From: Deltaproteobacteria bacterium
GTDB lineage: Bacteria; Myxococcota_A; Polyangia; Polyangiales; Houyiibacteriaceae
Assembly: GCA_013151775.1 (NCBI GenBank)
Contig: JAADHO010000004.1
Span: forward strand, 1-36,259
Direction of reading: 5' to 3'
Length of the DNA stretch: 36,259 nt
The position numbers and the translations under genes were made by a program. The notes beneath the pieces are model-generated. The model worked only from the letters and a program-made list of their open reading frames with translations. It made no database searches and had not been told where the DNA came from. This document shows positions 1-7,167 of the stretch, in pieces. Every line of letters begins with the position of its first letter. Positions within the stretch are counted from its first letter, which is position 1.

Positions 1-457
1 TGTTGAAGGCCGCCTTCTGGTGCACCAGCAGGTGGGCCAGCTCCGCCTCGAAGTTGTCCGCCGCGACCTCGTCGGCGAAGTAGCCGCCGAAGCTCTCGCC
101 CGCCTCGCGGATGGTGTGGACCACGCGGTGTACGAGCTGCTTCACGGAGCGCTCGCCCTTCTTGTGGTCTCCGTCGATGCCCGCCTTGCGGAAATACTTG
201 CTGACCGCGATGTCGGTCGCGAGCTGAGACCAGCCTTCGGGTACCTCGGCGCCCTTCATCTCGAAGACGATCGAGCCGTCCGAGCCCGAGATCACGCTGT
301 CGCGCAGCTCGTAGCTCGCCGTCTCGAGCGGGTCCTCGTCCGCTCGTGTGAAGCGCCGCTCGACTACGAGTCCGCCGCTCTCTTGGGTCAGCTCTGCGCG
401 TCGCTCGCCCGCGACCACAGAGGTGTTCTCTTCATTCATCGATTCCGTCACGTGCAT
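1..457 (-). CDS. nrdJ: Adenosylcobalamin-dependent (class II) ribonucleotide reductase, N-terminal fragment
   Basis: This is the first 152 codons of a gene that leaves the window at base 1. The class II enzyme reduces ribonucleotides to deoxyribonucleotides in the cytoplasm using coenzyme B12 and does not need oxygen. The translation begins MHVTESMNEENT. It then carries the stretches typical of the NrdJ N-terminus: YELRDSVI, EMKGAEVPEGWSQLA, SKYFRKAGI, and near the window edge GGYFADEV followed by HLLVHQKAAFN, which in the family runs into SPVWFN. The ATG at 457 is chosen because a GGAG lies five bases before it; a second in-frame ATG at 439 is possible. The active-site cysteines lie outside the window. 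The upstream DNA carries repeated CCACA-type elements that look like NrdR boxes. Confidence 0.88.
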   Translation of the reverse strand, partial: MHVTESMNEENTSVVAGERRAELTQESGGLVVERRFTRADEDPLETASYELRDSVISGSDGSIVFEMKGAEVPEGWSQLATDIAVSKYFRKAGIDGDHKKGERSVKQLVHRVVHTIREAGESFGGYFADEVAADNFEAELAHLLVHQKAAFN

Positions 458-524
458 ATCCACTCCCACGACAACCGTCCATCCTGGGCACAAAGGCCCC
501 CCGAAGGTGTCCGGCTGTCACTGT

Positions 525-607
525 CCACAGCTGGGTACCCATAGTTTCCACACCCGATCCACAACCTGTGGGGATGGTGCCGCCGACACCTCCACAACAG
601 CTAGTGG
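525..607. promoter_or_regulatory. Candidate NrdR-box array upstream of nrdJ
   Basis: Two 16-bp imperfect palindromes are visible: CCACAACAGCTAGTGG at 592-607 and CCACAACCTGTGGGGA at 559-574, offset by 33 bp. A weaker CCACAGCTGG element begins at 525, 34 bp further towards the gene. The first resembles the NrdR box, whose commonly given pattern is acaCWAtATaTWGtgt. Paired boxes about three helical turns apart in front of a reductase gene are the known NrdR arrangement. NrdR is an ATP-cone repressor of ribonucleotide reductase genes. The assignment rests on pattern match and position only. Confidence 0.5.
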
Positions 608-618
608 GACTGCTCGGC

Positions 619-798
619 TTAGCCCTCCGTCGATAGGTGGGTCAAGAGGAAATACTGGCAGTCCATGCGTTTCTCGTTTTCCCATGTAATTACAACTAGT
701 TCTGTGTTTGCATCAACTTGCCATCCGGCGGTCTCCGTGATGCGACCCAGAGGGTATCCAGACCGACACAGAGGGCATGACCAGGCAGGCAGTGCCAC
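619..798 (-). CDS. Doubtful small protein (59 aa) with a CPLC motif, possibly a gene remnant
   Basis: The minus-strand frame ending at 619 reads like a real protein end: WSCPLCRSGYPLG, then TAGWQVDANTEL and ITWENEKRMDCQYFLL before the stop. It is richer in A and T at third positions than the genes around it. A GTG at 798 could start it, but no good ribosome binding site precedes it and the frame stays open far upstream into antisense of the first AIM24 gene. It could be a small gene, the 3' end of a decayed one, or chance. I do not recognise a family. Confidence 0.18.
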   Translation of the reverse strand: MALPAWSCPLCRSGYPLGRITETAGWQVDANTELVVITWENEKRMDCQYFLLTHLSTEG

Positions 799-1195
799 TA
801 CGTGAACACTACTACCTGTAGTGGGTACGTCCCAAAAAACACGCAAGAGAAGCCACGTCAGCGTGTGTCGGTGAGGTAGCTTTCGCGTATCGATCCAGCG
901 CCACTGGGGTCGGCCGACCCGTATCGCCTGAGGCGCCAAGCTGGCTCGAGGCGTGCCCCGAGGCCCAGGCGATCCGTCCGGAAGCGGCATGATTCCAGTA
1001 GTCTGCAAGATTGATCCGGCCCAGATTGCACGCGGAGAGGTCTCCGCGAGGCCAAAATCCGAGTCTGCACGCCAGGGTCGACAGACCCCGTCACACTCCA
1101 GCGCGCGTGGAGTCACGGTGGGCCTCACAATTCGCAGGTTGCCCGCCGGGTTGGTCACTTGATATTCCCTGTCCGGGGGATCTGAGGAGTGAGCC

Positions 1196-1957
1196 ATGGA
1201 GCCGCAAGCGCCAATGCAGCCAGGCAACGCCGCAGTCGGCGTCGCCCCAGTCGTCTCTGCGACGCCGCACGAGATCACGCATGGACCGTCCTTCGCCATG
1301 CTGCGGGTCGACCTCGAGCCCGGCGTGACGGTGGTGGCGGAAGCCGGCGCGATGGTCGCGCGCAATCAGCATGTCGGGATGGAGGTGAAGATGAACGCCT
1401 CCCCACGCGCGAGCTTCTTCGCCAAGTTGAAGGCGTTCTTCATCGCGCTGATCCGAAAGGTGATCGGCGGCGAGACGTTCTTCGTCAATCATTTCACGTC
1501 ACCTCAGCCGGGCAGTGTGTGGCTCGCGCCCACCATGGCGGGGCAGGTCGCCTATCGACGGCTGAAGGGCGAGACGCTCACACTCTCCACGGGCGCCTAC
1601 CTCGCGCACGTGGGCGATCTCGACATGAAGATGAAATTCGGCGGACTGAAGAGCCTGCTCGCGAAGGAGGGCGCCTTCTTCTTGGAGCTGAGCGGCCAAG
1701 GAGACCTCTGGTTCAACAGCTACGGCGGCGTTCACGTCATCGAGGTCGACGGCAGCTACATCGTAGACAACGGTCACCTCGTGGGCTTCGAGGGGGACCT
1801 GAACTTCACCATCAAGGGCGCGGGCGGAGGCCTGATGGGCTTGGTGGCGTCGGGCGAGGGCATGGTCTGCGAGTTCTCGGGCCAAGGCCGCGTCTACATC
1901 CAATCGCGCAACGTCGGCTCTCTGGTCGGCTGGCTCACTCCACTCCTCCCCGGCTGA
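1196..1957 (+). CDS. AIM24-family protein (first of three)
   Basis: This 253-aa protein belongs to the AIM24/DUF124 family (TIGR00266-like), a beta-rich fold found in bacteria, archaea and yeast mitochondria with no settled biochemical role. The diagnostic blocks are EAGAMVARNQHVGMEV near residues 45-60, GGETFFVNHF near 95, WFNSYGGVHVIEVDG near 175-190 and GEGMVCEFSGQGRVYIQSRN near the end. It has no signal peptide or membrane segment, so it is probably cytoplasmic or peripheral to the membrane. It differs from its two neighbours by an extra Pro/Ala-rich N-terminus of about 25 residues. The ATG follows TGAGGAG by seven bases, a good ribosome binding site. It heads a plus-strand run with two more family members and the gene at 3364. 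Family assignment is firm; function is unknown. Confidence 0.88.
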   Translation: MEPQAPMQPGNAAVGVAPVVSATPHEITHGPSFAMLRVDLEPGVTVVAEAGAMVARNQHVGMEVKMNASPRASFFAKLKAFFIALIRKVIGGETFFVNHFTSPQPGSVWLAPTMAGQVAYRRLKGETLTLSTGAYLAHVGDLDMKMKFGGLKSLLAKEGAFFLELSGQGDLWFNSYGGVHVIEVDGSYIVDNGHLVGFEGDLNFTIKGAGGGLMGLVASGEGMVCEFSGQGRVYIQSRNVGSLVGWLTPLLPG

Positions 1958-1996
1958 GCGCGTCATGACTTTTCCTGCCTATGACAAGGAGCTCTC

Positions 1997-2671
1997 GTGC
2001 AAGTAGAGATCGGCTACCGACCCGCCCACGCCATGGCTCGCGTCGTGCTCGAGCCCAACGAGTCCATCGTCGCCGAGAGCGGCGCTATGGTCGGCATGAG
2101 CACAAACGTGCAGATGCAGACTCAGTCGGGCGGCCTGATGAAGGGGCTGAAGCGCATGTTCGGAGGCGAGTCCTTCTTCCGCAACACCTTCACGGCGGCC
2201 GGTGGCCCCGGTGAGGTGCTACTCGCCCACTCCCTGTGTGGCGACATGGTCACGATGGAGATGACGTCCACGGGCTACTTCGTGCAGTCTTCCTCCTTCA
2301 TCGCCTCCACACCCAACGTGAACCTCGACACCAAGGTGGGCGGCTTCAAGACCTTCTTCGCCGGCGAGGGGGTCTTCGTGCTGAAGGCGACCGCGAGCGA
2401 AGCGGGGCAGCTCGTGCTCGGCGCCTTCGGGGGCATCCAAGAGCTCGCCTGCGATGGCAACCTGGTGATCGACACGGGGCACCTCGTCGCATGGGACGCC
2501 AGCCTCGAGTACTCCGTGGGCAAGAGTGGCAGCGGCTGGATCGCCTCCTTCCTCTCGGGCGAGGGCCTGGTCTGCCACTTCCGTGGCCAAGGGCGCATCT
2601 GGATTCAGACGCGCAACCCCAGCGAATACGGTCAGGCCGTGGGCCGCATGCTCCCCCCGAAGAAGCGATAG
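1997..2671 (+). CDS. AIM24-family protein (second of three)
   Basis: A 224-aa AIM24/DUF124-family protein without signal peptide. The family blocks are ESGAMVGMSTNVQMQTQ near residues 30-45, GGESFFRNTFTA near 55-66, GAFGGIQELACDGN near 145 and GEGLVCHFRGQGRIWIQTRNP near 195-215. The start is a GTG at 1997 preceded by AAGGAG seven bases upstream; this places the alignable family start at residue 1. It lies 39 bases after the first AIM24 gene and 9 bases before the third, so co-transcription is likely. Compared with the first copy it lacks the N-terminal extension. The copies are clearly diverged, so this is an old duplication or a hetero-oligomeric set rather than a recent tandem amplification. 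Confidence 0.88.
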   Translation: MQVEIGYRPAHAMARVVLEPNESIVAESGAMVGMSTNVQMQTQSGGLMKGLKRMFGGESFFRNTFTAAGGPGEVLLAHSLCGDMVTMEMTSTGYFVQSSSFIASTPNVNLDTKVGGFKTFFAGEGVFVLKATASEAGQLVLGAFGGIQELACDGNLVIDTGHLVAWDASLEYSVGKSGSGWIASFLSGEGLVCHFRGQGRIWIQTRNPSEYGQAVGRMLPPKKR

Positions 2672-2680
2672 GAGAGCGCC

Positions 2681-3364
2681 ATGCGATACGAACTGAAGGA
2701 CAAGCCCGATTTCACCGTGGTCCACGTCGATTTCGAGGCGCCTGGCGAGCAGATCCTGGTCGAGTCCAGCGCCATGATTGCGCGTCACGGCGGCGTCGAT
2801 ATGCAGACGCAGATGAAGGGCGGGCTGCTCGCGGCCGCCAAGCGCAAGATGCTCGGAGGCGAGAGTATCTTTCAGAATACATTCACATCGAGTGCGGCGG
2901 GTCAGGATCTGTGGCTCGCACCGGGTCCCGAGGGTGACGTCGAGGCGCTAGAGCTCGATGGCAGCTACCCAGTGATGCTGTCGAGCGGCGCGTTTCTAGC
3001 CAGCGCGCCAAGTGTCAATCTAGATACGAAGTGGGGAGGCGCCAAGGGCTTCTTCAGCGGTGCCGGGCTCTTCCTGCTCAAGGCGGAGGGCACGGGCCCG
3101 CTCTTCTTCTCGAGCTATGGCGGCATTCACGCCGTGGACGTCGGACCCGCGGGCTTCATCTGCGACACGAGTCATATCGTGGGCTTCACCGGCGGACTCG
3201 ATTATGACGTCACGAAGGTTGGAGGCCTGAAGAGCCTGTTCTTCTCGGGAGAGGGCTTGGTCTGCCGCTTCAGCGGCCAGGGGCGCCTCTGGATCGCCAC
3301 ACGAAACCCCGGCGCGTTGGCGAGCTTCCTAGATCCCTATCGCCGAGCGGAGCGCAGCAACTGA
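2681..3364 (+). CDS. AIM24-family protein (third of three)
   Basis: A 227-aa AIM24/DUF124-family protein. The blocks include ESSAMIARHGGVDMQTQMKG near residues 29-47, GGESIFQNTFTS near 60, FFSSYGGIHAVDVG near 145-158 and GEGLVCRFSGQGRLWIATRNP near 195-215. The ATG has GGAGAG six bases upstream. Its TGA stop overlaps the ATG of the next gene by one base, which suggests translational coupling of the AIM24 proteins with the nucleotidase-barrel protein. No transmembrane segment is visible. The central bases (about 2870-3060) are a little less GC-rich than the flanks. Family assignment is firm; function is not known. Confidence 0.88.
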   Translation: MRYELKDKPDFTVVHVDFEAPGEQILVESSAMIARHGGVDMQTQMKGGLLAAAKRKMLGGESIFQNTFTSSAAGQDLWLAPGPEGDVEALELDGSYPVMLSSGAFLASAPSVNLDTKWGGAKGFFSGAGLFLLKAEGTGPLFFSSYGGIHAVDVGPAGFICDTSHIVGFTGGLDYDVTKVGGLKSLFFSGEGLVCRFSGQGRLWIATRNPGALASFLDPYRRAERSN

Positions 3365-5661
3365 TGTCACGAATCTCGTCTTCGATCCTCCTGACGCTCT
3401 GCCTTTGGCTGATCGCGTCTAGCGTGCAGGCCCAAGGTTCAGTCGACCTGCAGCTGATGGCGCGGCTCTACGTCAGCTCCGACACCCACGGCCACGTCGC
3501 CGATCCGGTCTGCAGAGATGGTGAAGACTTCGAGCCCACGGAGCTCGCGCGCAGCCTCAGCGCCTTGTCGATGGCGCGCCACGCGGATCCCCAATCCTTG
3601 ATGATCGACACAGGCACCATCCTCGGTCCCCACGCTGTGGCGCGCTTCGCGGCTCAGACCGAGCCCGCACAGCTCGCGGCGCTGCTGGCCGATTTGGGTT
3701 ACGACGCCATCGGCTTTGGCGAGACCGAGCTCGGTCTCCCGCGATCGATGCTGCTCGACGTCGCCCGCGCCCTGCGCTCTCGTGGCGTGCCGCTCCTGGC
3801 TACGAACTTGTATTGCGGCCCCGAGGCGCAGGATCTCTGCGACGCGTTGGTAGACGGCGTGGACGGCGTCCCGTTCTTTCAGGTCGGCCGTGAGCGCATC
3901 GCCCTCTTCGCCTTTCTCACTCCCGAGGCTCTCGGACGAGTCCCCCCGGAGAACACTCGCGGCGTGCGCCTCGCGCCGCTGAAGGAAAGCATGATCGCGG
4001 CCGTGCGTGCCGCCCGAGCGCGCGGCGCCACGGCGGTCATCGTCAGCGTGCAGGATGGCAGCGGCGCGGACGCAGTATCAAGAGTGATGGCAAATCTGGC
4101 AGGCGTCTCCGCGGAAGACAAACCCGATCTGGTGCTCTCGGCGGAGGCCGGAGCCGAGCTGATCTTCGCACGCCCCGCGACCTTCAGGCCACCCATCGCC
4201 TCGGCCCCTACGCGGGGAACCGCCAGCGTCGAGGTGCGGCGCGACACTCAGCGCGGGATCTTCGATGTGCTGGTGCAGCCCATGACGCCTGCGGACTCGG
4301 TCCACGATCCCCTCAGCTCGTTCCTCGATCGCATGGGACGCGCCTACTGCGAGCGTTGGGGTCGAGCTTTGCCCGGTGCGCGTCTCGGAGCCGATTCACT
4401 CGACGCGGACGGTATGCTGGACTTGACGGCGGGCATCCTGCTCGAGGCGACTGGCGCCGAGATCGCGCTGCTCGGGCGTGGCGTGACCGACTCGACCTAT
4501 GAACAGGCGGGAGACACCCCGCTCACGGCGAGCGACGTGTTCGTGGCGCTTCAATACGACGACCCTCTGGCCACCGCGACCGTGCCCGGGACCTGGCTGC
4601 GCACACTCGCGCGCAGTCTCGATCCAGCGAAACTGCTCGCCCTCGGGCTCAGCGTCTCCGGCGCCAACACCGCCACCGAGAAAATCAAGGTGAACGGACG
4701 CGCCCTCGAGCTGCAGGGCAACTACCGCATCGTGACCTCGAGCTTCTTGGCCACCGGAGGAGATCGTCTGCTGCCTGCGGGCGCCGACTTCACACTCTCG
4801 CACGACCTGCGCGTCCGCGGCGCCGTCTTGGACTACCTCGGGCGTCCGCGGCCGGGTGACCCGCGAGAGAGCTTGCCTGATCTGGCGGATCGCGTGGAGT
4901 GGTCGAGTCGCTTCGACACGGACGCCACCTTCACGGGCTCGTCCGTGCGCAACCCCGGCGACTACACGGACTCTCAGCTCGCGCGTGAGAATACGGCGGC
5001 GCTGGGCTTGGGTTCGACTCTGGCCTTCGCTGCGAGCTCTCGATCCCTCGCTTGGGACAACACCCTAACCGCTCGCTACAGCGTCACGCAGACGGGCAAC
5101 GGCTTCGACGAAGGCGACGACCTGATCTCCTACCGAACGAACCTGCGCTATCGCGGCTGGCACAGCCAGACGCCTGAGGTCTACGTTCCCGAACCATTCC
5201 TCGAGGCCTTCGTCGAGTCCGAATTCACCACGAGTGACACTCTCGGATATCACCACCTCTTGGTCCGGCCGACGCTGGGCTTCGCCTTCACGCTCACGAG
5301 CAAGCTGCTCCTGAAGCTCAACGGCGGCTTCGAGGTCGAGGCCCTCGATCCGGAGGCGTCCGTGTTGCCGGGCGCGGGCGCCAACCTCGAGCTCAAGCCT
5401 TGGCAGCTGATGCGCGACGGCGTGCGACGCGTGGATGTCGGCCTCACGGTCGACTACTTCGTTTCGGATATCGGCGCCGCCAACCGTCAGACGCTGCGCG
5501 CTCGCTTTGACACCACCTTCACCCTCAGCGGCAGCCTCTCTTTCGCGCTCTTGGTGGATCTCTTCGGTGTGCGCTCCGGCGCGGGTCCCTTCAGCATCGC
5601 CATCAACACCACCGCCGCTCTGCGCTTCCGCTTCGTTGGCAGGCGCCTCGCGGGCAGCTGA
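3364..5661 (+). CDS. Degenerate 5'-nucleotidase-like domain fused to a predicted outer-membrane beta-barrel
   Basis: A 765-aa exported protein. Residues 1-24 are a signal peptide ending VQA-QG. Residues about 30-300 follow the UshA/5'-nucleotidase metallophosphatase layout. SSDTHGHV (38-45) keeps the DxH of motif I, but the GD motif reads IDTGTILG, the GNHE motif reads GFGETELG, and the distal GHxH motif is not recognisable, so several metal ligands are missing. Residues about 320-490 resemble the 5'-nucleotidase C-terminal domain (TAGILLEATGAEIALLGRG; FLATGGDRLLP). From about 505 to the end there are alternating amphipathic strands rich in aromatic residues and Gly, such as DNTLTARYSVTQ and ALRFRFVG, as in an outer-membrane barrel. 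Usual UshA length is about 550, so the C-terminal 260 residues are extra. It is coupled by a one-base overlap to the third AIM24 gene. Likely role: an outer-membrane-anchored pseudoenzyme, by inference. Confidence 0.75.
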   Translation: MSRISSSILLTLCLWLIASSVQAQGSVDLQLMARLYVSSDTHGHVADPVCRDGEDFEPTELARSLSALSMARHADPQSLMIDTGTILGPHAVARFAAQTEPAQLAALLADLGYDAIGFGETELGLPRSMLLDVARALRSRGVPLLATNLYCGPEAQDLCDALVDGVDGVPFFQVGRERIALFAFLTPEALGRVPPENTRGVRLAPLKESMIAAVRAARARGATAVIVSVQDGSGADAVSRVMANLAGVSAEDKPDLVLSAEAGAELIFARPATFRPPIASAPTRGTASVEVRRDTQRGIFDVLVQPMTPADSVHDPLSSFLDRMGRAYCERWGRALPGARLGADSLDADGMLDLTAGILLEATGAEIALLGRGVTDSTYEQAGDTPLTASDVFVALQYDDPLATATVPGTWLRTLARSLDPAKLLALGLSVSGANTATEKIKVNGRALELQGNYRIVTSSFLATGGDRLLPAGADFTLSHDLRVRGAVLDYLGRPRPGDPRESLPDLADRVEWSSRFDTDATFTGSSVRNPGDYTDSQLARENTAALGLGSTLAFAASSRSLAWDNTLTARYSVTQTGNGFDEGDDLISYRTNLRYRGWHSQTPEVYVPEPFLEAFVESEFTTSDTLGYHHLLVRPTLGFAFTLTSKLLLKLNGGFEVEALDPEASVLPGAGANLELKPWQLMRDGVRRVDVGLTVDYFVSDIGAANRQTLRARFDTTFTLSGSLSFALLVDLFGVRSGAGPFSIAINTTAALRFRFVGRRLAGS

Positions 5662-5671
5662 GGTACCTCAG
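5658..5671. repeat. 14-bp perfect palindrome holding both convergent stop codons
   Basis: CTGAGGTACCTCAG is a perfect palindrome. The TGA of the plus-strand nucleotidase-barrel gene (5659-5661) and the TGA of the minus-strand cardiolipin synthase gene (5668-5670) are mirror images inside it. No T-run follows on either side, so it is not a textbook intrinsic terminator. Confidence 0.6.
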
Positions 5672-7167
5672 AGGTAGGGAGAGAACAGACGCGCGATGCC
5701 ATCGCGGAGGCGACGCGCCAAGCTGCGCCGGTCTAGTTCGGCTCGACTCAGTTCACGCGCGCCGAGGATGCGCTCTTCGACGAGACCGTCGATCTCACGG
5801 GCCAGCTCATGTGAGAAGCACTCGAGGTTCACCTCGAAATTGAGCCGCAGGCTGCGTGGATCCCAGTTTGCGGAGCCGACGAAGGACCAGCGCTGGTCTA
5901 CGACCATCAGCTTGCTGTGATCGAAGGGCGCCGGGCTCACCCAAACTCGGCAATGACCACGCGTGAAGATCGACAGCTGCGCGTTCATCGCCCAGCGAAT
6001 GATCGCGAGGTTCCCGTGCTCCGGCACCACGATGTCCACCTCCACGCCGCGCAAGGCGGCGACCTCGAGCGCCGTCTCCAGGCTGCGATCGGGCAGAAAA
6101 TATGGAGTGACGATGCGAATGGATCGCTCGGCCGAGTTGATCGCGCCCGCCATGATCCAGCGGATCTTGTCCATGTCGATGTCCGGACCATCCGTAAACA
6201 CGCGGCACAGAGTCTCCCCCGCGGGTTCGATCTCTGGGAAGAAGACCGTACCCTCGAGCGATTCGCGTGTGGCGAACTGCCAATCCTCCGCGAAGACCTC
6301 CTGGACTTGGCGCACCACGGGGCCCTCGACGCGAAAATGCGTGTCATGCGTGGGATGCTTGGGCCGATCGCCGAGCACGCAGTCGCCCCGAATGTTCATG
6401 CCGCCCATGAAGGCCAGCCTTCCATCGATCACCAAGATCTTCCGGTGATTGCGCAGATTCAGATAGGGCATGCGGATGAGTCGCGCTGGCATGAAGCTCG
6501 CGCAGGGCACGCCTCGGCGCTCGAGCAGCGTGTCGACGTGGGGACGGGCGTAGCGTTTGCCCGCGTCGTCGACCAACACGCGCACCTCGACGCCCCGATC
6601 CTTGGCGGCCTCCAAGGCGTCCACGAAGCGCAGGCCCCAAGCGTCCGTGTCGAAGATGTAGGTCGCGAGGGTGACGCTCTGGGTCGCCTGCTCGATGGCT
6701 TCGATCATGGCCGGGTAGGCGACATCTCCATCGACCAGCGACGTGATGCGGTTGGCGGGGAGCAGCGGACGACCCGCCACGGTCTCGCCTAGCCGGGCCA
6801 GCTCGGCGAGGTGGGAGTCTTCCTCGGGTAGGAATTCCTGCACCTCTTTGGGTGTCAGGGGTTCTGCCAAGCTCGGGAGGTAGAAGAGTCGACGCCCACG
6901 GCGCAGCATGGCCGCACGGCGGCGGATTCGGTTGATGCCGAAGCTTGCATAGAGCAGGGCCCCGGCGATCGGCACCATCCAGATCACGCCGACCCAGCCG
7001 AGCGTGGCCGTCGCATCGCGCTTGTGCAGGATCGCGTGCGCGGAGGCCACCAGCGCGAGACCCAGCACGAAGGCGGAACTCAGGTACGGCCAGACGTCGG
7101 CGAGCATCTGCATGGCGTCCCGAGTCCAGTCTCGCACGTCCTGCCAGAAGACGCTCGCCTCAGCCAC
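5668..7167 (-). CDS. cls: Cardiolipin synthase (phospholipase D family)
   Basis: A 499-aa membrane enzyme of the bacterial Cls type, which condenses two phosphatidylglycerol molecules into cardiolipin at the inner membrane. Two hydrophobic helices lie in the first 80 residues (SSAFVLGLALVASAHAIL and GVIWMVPIAGALLYASFG). Two HKD catalytic motifs are present: NHRKILVIDGRLAFMGGMN near residue 237 and DHSKLMVVDQRWSFVGSANWD near 415. Length matches the family. The start is a GTG at 7167; there is no strong ribosome binding site, and an ATG further in would remove the charged N-terminus but not the helices. It lies convergent to the nucleotidase-barrel gene and 28 bases after the stop of the lipoprotein gene on the same strand, so the two may be co-transcribed. 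Confidence 0.88.
   Translation of the reverse strand: MAEASVFWQDVRDWTRDAMQMLADVWPYLSSAFVLGLALVASAHAILHKRDATATLGWVGVIWMVPIAGALLYASFGINRIRRRAAMLRRGRRLFYLPSLAEPLTPKEVQEFLPEEDSHLAELARLGETVAGRPLLPANRITSLVDGDVAYPAMIEAIEQATQSVTLATYIFDTDAWGLRFVDALEAAKDRGVEVRVLVDDAGKRYARPHVDTLLERRGVPCASFMPARLIRMPYLNLRNHRKILVIDGRLAFMGGMNIRGDCVLGDRPKHPTHDTHFRVEGPVVRQVQEVFAEDWQFATRESLEGTVFFPEIEPAGETLCRVFTDGPDIDMDKIRWIMAGAINSAERSIRIVTPYFLPDRSLETALEVAALRGVEVDIVVPEHGNLAIIRWAMNAQLSIFTRGHCRVWVSPAPFDHSKLMVVDQRWSFVGSANWDPRSLRLNFEVNLECFSHELAREIDGLVEERILGARELSRAELDRRSLARRLRDGIARLFSPYL

Follow-up and report, generated by a model that had tools for sequence, protein, structure and literature searches.

Three different AIM24 proteins are encoded side by side in a Deltaproteobacteria bacterium (contig JAADHO010000004.1), directly ahead of an exported protein that combines a nucleotidase fold with a β-barrel. 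The locus raises the question of what such a trio does and whether the barrel protein is its partner, given that a 2019 paper describes the physiological function of bacterial AIM24 proteins, without exception, as unknown (PMC6677890). Analysis of the window, which is the whole stretch of 36,259 nucleotides, confirmed four co-directional open reading frames on the plus strand with inter-gene gaps of 39, 9 and −1 nt (Table 1). The initial annotation, which had described three packed AIM24 genes followed by an exported nucleotidase-barrel gene, with gaps of 39 and 9, was exact to the base. The stop–start overlap suggests that AIM24c and the barrel gene are translationally coupled, and a sequence scan of the window revealed no terminator-like site between them. 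The operon promoter presumably lies in the long region upstream of AIM24a. No sigma-70 consensus promoter was found there, although this consensus is uninformative for the phylum of the host. A riboswitch upstream of the trio, beside the ribonucleotide reductase gene, was also considered and ruled out, as the region matches no Rfam family.

Table 1. Features of the AIM24–barrel locus, in window coordinates.
Feature	Position	Strand	Details and evidence
Ribonucleotide reductase gene start	1–457	minus	divergent from AIM24a
Long divergent intergenic region, ribonucleotide reductase start to AIM24a	458–1195	.	putative promoter site of operon
AIM24 paralogue a (P0001)	1196–1957	+	253 aa, ATG; PF01987 E 9e-55, TIGR00266 E 1e-56; clade a
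AIM24a start, second candidate ATG	1214	+	
AIM24 paralogue b (P0002)	1997–2671	+	224 aa, GTG start; PF01987 E 4e-62; clade b
AIM24 paralogue c (P0003)	2681–3364	+	227 aa, ATG; PF01987 E 3e-59; clade c
Stop–start overlap TGATG, AIM24c/barrel gene, one shared base	3362–3366	+	sequence
Pseudo-5'-nucleotidase with C-terminal outer-membrane barrel (P0004)	3364–5661	+	765 aa, ATG; PF02872 E 2e-8, AF2 pLDDT 89, nucleotidase fold Z ~25, homologues
Signal peptide region of P0004, residues ~1–24	3364–3435	+	hydrophobic helix, residues 6–22
Pseudo-metallophosphatase domain of P0004, residues ~29–306, without metal ligands	3448–4281	+	alignment, AF2 model, fold match
5'-Nucleotidase C-terminal domain of P0004, residues ~315–506	4306–4881	+	PF02872, AF2 model, fold match
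12-strand β-barrel of P0004, residues 511–763	4894–5652	+	pLDDT 92.5 when folded alone; matches generic outer-membrane barrels

The three AIM24 proteins are full-length members of their family, scoring 186–210 bits against PF01987 (cut-off 25.7) and 191–211 bits against TIGR00266 (curated cut-off 96.6). AIM24b and AIM24c are 35–41% identical to AIM24a, which has an N-terminal extension and an 11-residue insertion within a cationic amphipathic segment; this segment spans residues 74–87 in AIM24a and residues 44–57 in AIM24b. Relatives of AIM24b are found in the PDB (1PG6 and 1YOX). The solved bacterial structures of the AIM24/TIGR00266 family represent single proteins with no known function, whereas the window encodes a fixed set of three ancient paralogues. 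In 38 Myxococcota triplets from 12 families, the a, b and c proteins fall into three separate clades and are encoded in the same order. Two Bacteroidota triplets share these clades and this order (FastTree supports 0.99, 0.99 and 0.87), and each window gene belongs to the clade expected from its position. Recent tandem amplification was therefore ruled out, because the three clades span phyla. Within the order to which the window belongs, genomes with trio-type genes hold all three together, with the exception of G003, where the copies lie at three separate places. The stable retention of three distinct paralogues that had been claimed for this locus is thus borne out by clades that extend across phyla, a fixed a–b–c order and nearly all-or-none presence, and such retention fits a hetero-oligomer.

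The protein encoded downstream, P0004, matches 5_nucleotid_C (PF02872), and its AF2 model (pTM 0.83) consists of a nucleotidase fold followed by a 12-strand barrel. In the predicted model the two-domain nucleotidase fold (Foldseek E 1.9e-22, VIA-align Z ~25) is the one found in the 5'-nucleotidases UshA and CD73; unlike these enzymes, the P0004 family lacks the metal ligands and is fused to an outer-membrane barrel. Only the first D-x-H of the dinuclear metal site (DxH, GD, GNH, H, GHxH) is kept in P0004, and none of the 28 aligned relatives has the complete site. A catalytic nucleotidase was ruled out owing to this family-wide loss of metal ligands, and the original designation as a "pseudo"nucleotidase was apt. 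With a predicted signal helix and 12 strands, P0004 has the hallmarks of an outer-membrane barrel protein. The barrel matches OmpG, NalP and similar structures with low TM scores, and no specific family could be assigned to it, as the best 50 matches are generic outer-membrane barrels with TM ≤0.46. The order of its parts agrees with that of autotransporters (type V), and NalP, BrkA and EspP are among the weak matches; ahead of the first strand, however, the model shows no linker helix of the kind that lies in the pore of the 12-strand autotransporter translocator.

A survey of gene neighborhoods for co-occurrence of AIM24 and barrel genes, for which a lack of linkage elsewhere had been set beforehand as the refuting outcome, found them linked in other genomes. 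The arrangement is present in 13 surveyed genomes besides the window, 14 in all, which belong to three families of a single Myxococcota order; such recurrence exceeds what chance would give. The AIM24–barrel coupling proposed in the initial annotation thus holds as a recurrent gene linkage, but it is confined to one order, and most other trios surveyed lack the barrel. Elsewhere in the phylum the survey revealed no AIM24 gene near barrels of this type, and the linkage is limited to one barrel clade. It is real but lineage-restricted, and the barrel cannot be called the usual partner of AIM24 trios. We found no report of the arrangement in the literature.

The widespread, deep partner of the trio is instead a membrane-anchored BepA/OMA1-like M48 peptidase. 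The order M48 peptidase, AIM24a, b and c was observed in 73 of the best 80 named loci, in at least ten phyla; these loci were retrieved with a Bacteroidota b protein as seed, so the M48-linked type is over-represented among them. Median gaps at the M48-linked loci in this set are 4 nt (M48 to a) and 15 nt (a to b). Two Bacteroidota plasmid records contain the same order, and solo AIM24 controls have no M48 neighbor. The HExxH motif is intact in all 74 trio-linked M48 proteins; a strong transmembrane segment is present in 72 (median start residue 108), preceded in 68 of the 74 by an excess of K/R that indicates an N-in orientation. The closest NCBIfam model is BepA, although at ~100 bits the matches lie far below its equivalog cut-off of 570. 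These proteins share the M48 domain and HExxH with the metallopeptidases BepA, LoiP and OMA1, but differ from them in having an N-terminal domain of ~100 residues without a Pfam match and one transmembrane segment. No literature report of an M48–AIM24 trio operon was found.

There is no M48 gene in the trio neighborhood of the window, and its genome contains no match to the model of the trio-type M48 at E ≤1e-15, while four other M48 matches lie elsewhere in that genome. Among 39 myxobacterial trio loci, 7 carry M48, 12 carry the barrel and none carries both; the mutual exclusion supports the reading favored below, whereas the small number with M48 weakens it. The trio-type M48 is also missing from several other barrel-linked genomes, and the trio can therefore function in its absence.

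We therefore favor, with a probability of about 0.5, a reading in which the locus is a lineage-specific form of an ancient module, with the trio as a membrane-surface hetero-oligomer that serves membrane quality control or organization and the barrel as a later addition. AIM24 a, b and c would most likely come together in a single hetero-oligomer at the inner membrane, on its cytoplasmic side, where their cationic amphipathic segments could hold them. In many bacteria from at least ten phyla this trio shares an operon with the M48 zinc metallopeptidase of the BepA/OMA1 type, a membrane-anchored protein likely to expose its catalytic domain to the periplasm, and the trio may scaffold or gate such membrane or envelope quality control. 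In the lineage of the window the M48 gene is missing at the locus, and the place downstream of the trio is occupied by the dead-nucleotidase barrel family. Barrel and trio are probably expressed together, but the barrel would act in a different compartment, where it might serve as a surface for ligand binding or a receptor in the periplasm; it would not be a trio subunit. It is best read as a later, separately localized addition in this lineage.

The trio and barrel might alternatively constitute one trans-envelope system, in which the trio organizes or positions a functional barrel component. The TGATG overlap at the AIM24c–barrel junction would be consistent with this, as would an order kept in 14 genomes from three families, even at the loci (L103–L107) that differ at the upstream ribonucleotide reductase gene. 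We nevertheless consider it improbable. The AIM24 sequences of the window contain no signal peptide whereas the barrel is exported, which places the former in the cytoplasm and the latter in the outer membrane by prediction and makes a direct AIM24–barrel complex unlikely. Furthermore, G006 and G014 have the barrel beside the ribonucleotide reductase gene and no AIM24, the barrel having stayed in place after AIM24 loss; most trios are barrel-free, and other barrels of the phylum lie away from AIM24. Slightly less doubtful is the proposal that the four genes are mere neighbors in a synteny block of ribonucleotide reductase, trio and barrel, their co-transcription being incidental. The divergent ribonucleotide reductase gene is part of the block at 10 loci, that of the window among them, without any obvious relation to AIM24, and its adjacency to the trio is conserved nearly as well as that of the barrel; part of the trio–barrel linkage may thus be inherited synteny. 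This proposal does not readily account for the five genomes (L103–L107) in which the linkage survives with short co-directional gaps and without an adjacent ribonucleotide reductase gene, or for barrel identities across linked loci of just ~35–45%.

Single AIM24 genes also occur inside Ter clusters (PMC5822837), for example at an Aromatoleum locus, which could make the trio part of a tellurite/Ter-type stress system. This is very improbable: no TerD-like gene was found among those trio-locus neighbors examined by sequence or annotation (other loci are partly annotated), and the Ter-linked Aromatoleum AIM24 is a solo gene whose product is ~30% identical to b. In the window the neighbors are ribonucleotide reductase, the nucleotidase-barrel and a PLD-type protein, none of them TerD.

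The preferred reading of a membrane-surface trio linked to quality control draws support from eukaryotic AIM24 proteins, which are found with membrane machines. In yeast, Aim24 is tightly attached to the inner membrane in a ~400 kDa assembly with MICOS, has its C-terminus in the matrix or membrane, and is tied to membrane architecture and cardiolipin (PMC3975624); it shares the domain with the trio but is encoded by one gene rather than three. No literature report linking yeast Aim24 to OMA1 was found. The plant AIM24-domain proteins PAWH1 and PAWH2 belong to the Hrd1 ERAD complex, where they stabilize a membrane protein-quality-control machine (PMC6677890), although here there are two proteins, a ubiquitin ligase in place of a peptidase, and the ER in place of a bacterial envelope. 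Among M48 peptidases, Oma1, Ste24 and HtpX have roles in the quality control of membranes, and BepA contributes to the integrity of the outer membrane (PMC8423444). A bolder version, which we offer tentatively and regard as possible rather than probable, is an undescribed, phylum-spanning membrane-organizing or quality-control machine in which a hetero-oligomeric AIM24 a/b/c platform at the inner leaflet would control a periplasm-facing BepA/OMA1-like peptidase, Aim24–MICOS and PAWH–Hrd1 would be later versions built on that principle, and the barrel would replace the peptidase in one myxobacterial order.

A four-gene M48–trio operon that occurs across no fewer than ten phyla and includes a protease from a family with known membrane quality-control roles brings AIM24 function within reach of ordinary genetics in culturable Flavobacterium, Flammeovirga, Reinekea, Alcanivorax and Undibacterium species. 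If AIM24 and OMA1-type peptidases are indeed an old bacterial pair, this would bear on the origin of mitochondrial inner-membrane quality control. The barrel-linked form suggests that rewiring of the trio is possible. The PLD/cardiolipin-synthase gene downstream of the barrel (5668–7167) clusters with the neighbors of no other locus surveyed; it is a tempting neighbor because yeast Aim24 influences cardiolipin.

The four-gene arrangement proposed in the initial annotation was confirmed, with extent, gaps and overlap as described there. All three AIM24 paralogues are full AIM24/TIGR00266 members; AIM24b and AIM24c are 35% and 41% identical to AIM24a, respectively, and 1PG6 and 1YOX are solved structures related to AIM24b. 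The intergenic gaps are 39, 9 and -1 nt, the last reflecting a TGATG overlap, and no terminator-like site was found between AIM24c and the gene for the exported pseudo-5'-nucleotidase with a C-terminal outer-membrane β-barrel (the barrel protein). No Rfam families were found in the window. A divergent gene of cluster c2, which encodes a ribonucleotide reductase (relatives measure about 1100 aa), precedes the operon, and a convergent gene for a PLD-family protein follows it; the position of the latter is not conserved, and it is of note because yeast Aim24 affects cardiolipin.

Features of the operon, its neighbours and the barrel protein
Feature	Coordinates	Strand	Remark
Ribonucleotide reductase gene start	window 1-457	-	divergent from AIM24 operon
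AIM24a	window 1196-1957	+	ORF
AIM24b	window 1997-2671	+	ORF, GTG start
AIM24c	window 2681-3364	+	ORF
Barrel protein	window 3364-5661	+	ORF, 765 aa
PLD-family protein	window 5668-7167	-	cardiolipin-synthase type
Metallophosphatase domain	residues 29-306		AlphaFold2 model
5'-Nucleotidase C-terminal domain	residues 315-506		AlphaFold2 model
Twelve strands	residues 511-763		AlphaFold2 model

Judged from sequence, the AIM24 trio is ancient. A survey of 58 relatives and of 193 genomes from the class found same-strand triplets in many families, and in a maximum-likelihood tree built from 115 sequences the first, second and third genes fall apart into distinct groups. The three clades persisted after addition of two Bacteroidota triplets (supports 0.99, 0.99 and 0.87). 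Genomes of the order carry all three genes together or none, with the exception of G003, which has three scattered copies; one single AIM24 gene of this genome groups with clade b. At the sequence level, a three-part assembly is best supported by these separate clades and the all-or-none presence. Several variants were observed: the c gene is duplicated in G049 (L112), giving four AIM24s; the c protein of certain gammaproteobacterial-type trios (L220, L222, L234 and L240) is extended at its N-terminus by a further domain of about 110 aa that contains a conserved 'pvtIKk.vd..tA' segment; and a 457-aa frame (L141; G000:C389:5082-6452) combines tetratricopeptide-like repeats with an AIM24 domain at the C-terminus that has degenerated (PF01987, 32 bits), weak matches of this kind recurring in many relatives.

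The more important finding is the AIM24 trio with a partner other than the barrel protein. Two Bacteroidota plasmid loci encode an M48 peptidase followed by three AIM24s, and a scan of named genomes with a b-type alignment as query found the same-strand order M48 > a > b > c in 73 of the best 80 loci. This proportion does not hold for trios in general, since the scan favours relatives of the seed. These loci span Pseudomonadota, Bacteroidota, Verrucomicrobiota, Spirochaetota, Acidobacteriota, Lentisphaerota, Planctomycetota, Fibrobacterota, Thermodesulfobacteriota and Sumerlaeota, with median gaps of 4 nt (M48-a) and 15 nt (a-b); five of the remaining seven end at a contig edge and two (L253 and L261) have no upstream M48. 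The trio-linked peptidases, to which BepA is the closest curated model, retain HExxH in 74 of 74 cases; their transmembrane segment, strong in 72, lies at about residue 108 and is preceded by more positive charge in 68. Their N-terminal domain has no Pfam match; it comprises about 100 aa before the transmembrane segment ('GGa.nRfiFF...iyT.D...L'; for example L180:4167-5306 and L187:3192-4328), and a proline-rich region takes its place in some myxobacteria (L139 and L158). None of five solo AIM24 loci has an M48 neighbour, and one of them lies among TerD genes. Of 39 myxobacterial trio loci, 7 have M48 nearby, 12 have the barrel gene and none has both. Four M48 matches are present in the window genome, but at E<=1e-15 none belongs to the trio type; several barrel-linked genomes keep a trio-type M48 away from AIM24. 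No paper on AIM24 together with M48, or on a nucleotidase-barrel pseudoenzyme, was found in the searches of open-access full text, in which three papers mention TIGR00266, and the listed publications that mention both AIM24 and OMA1 concern mitochondria.

The window AIM24 proteins have no evident signal peptide or transmembrane segment, and the strongest cationic amphipathic stretch falls in the same segment of AIM24a and AIM24b (residues 74-87 and 44-57). Yeast Aim24, although hydrophilic, binds the inner membrane tightly and is part of an assembly of about 400 kDa connected with MICOS (PMC3975624); the plant AIM24 proteins PAWH1/2 are members of the Hrd1 ERAD complex (PMC6677890); and M48 peptidases act in membrane quality control (Oma1) and outer-membrane integrity (BepA) (PMC8423444). 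From these features we infer the assembly, membrane binding and function of AIM24: a hetero-oligomeric platform at the cytoplasmic face that would scaffold or control membrane quality control, with M48 as its usual effector. In the window lineage, the barrel gene occupies the operon slot.

The envelope system initially proposed is supported in part: a three-part assembly is favoured, and the AIM24-barrel coupling recurs in other genomes but is a local variant. The barrel gene lies immediately downstream of the triplet in G000, G001, G004, G007, G008, G009, G012, G015, G016, G035, G040 (counted across contig ends), G044, G049 and G054, which belong to three families of one order; G015 (L106) has two tandem barrel genes. 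All AIM24-linked barrels fall in one barrel clade, and no barrel from another family is near AIM24, f39, which lies outside the class, being among those covered. Because the ribonucleotide reductase gene is common to the block in 10 loci, the window included (spacing to AIM24 about 540-1440 nt), the linkage may in part be plain synteny; the adjacency nevertheless persists in five genomes without this gene beside the trio. Within the linked clade, the barrel genes of G006 and G014 adjoin the same divergent reductase gene in genomes with no AIM24 match, most simply explained by loss of the trio and retention of the barrel.

An AlphaFold2 model of the barrel protein (28-row alignment; pLDDT 89, pTM 0.83) places a signal-like helix at the N-terminus. 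The N-terminal part matches 5'-nucleotidases from CD73 through UshA (Z about 25), and the barrel domain predicted in isolation (pLDDT 92.5) matches only generic outer-membrane barrels among the best 50. In the alignment, the window protein retains one D-x-H, while GD, GNH, the catalytic His and GHxH are gone. None of 28 relatives has a complete metal site; only one distant relative still has GNHE, and a few retain GD. Conservation extends across all aligned relatives for NL-x-C and additional cysteines, and across most for GGD of the C-terminal domain. Loss of the metal-site motifs makes a binding or structural role more likely than nucleotidase activity. Direct contact with AIM24 is unlikely because the barrel is predicted for the outer membrane, and its tie to the trio is therefore probably regulatory or physiological. 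In several genomes the barrel gene has at or near it a gene for a PPC-domain protein (PF04151) that is small, secreted and lipoprotein-like (L102:11879-12337, L103, L104, L106 and L130), also where AIM24 has been lost.
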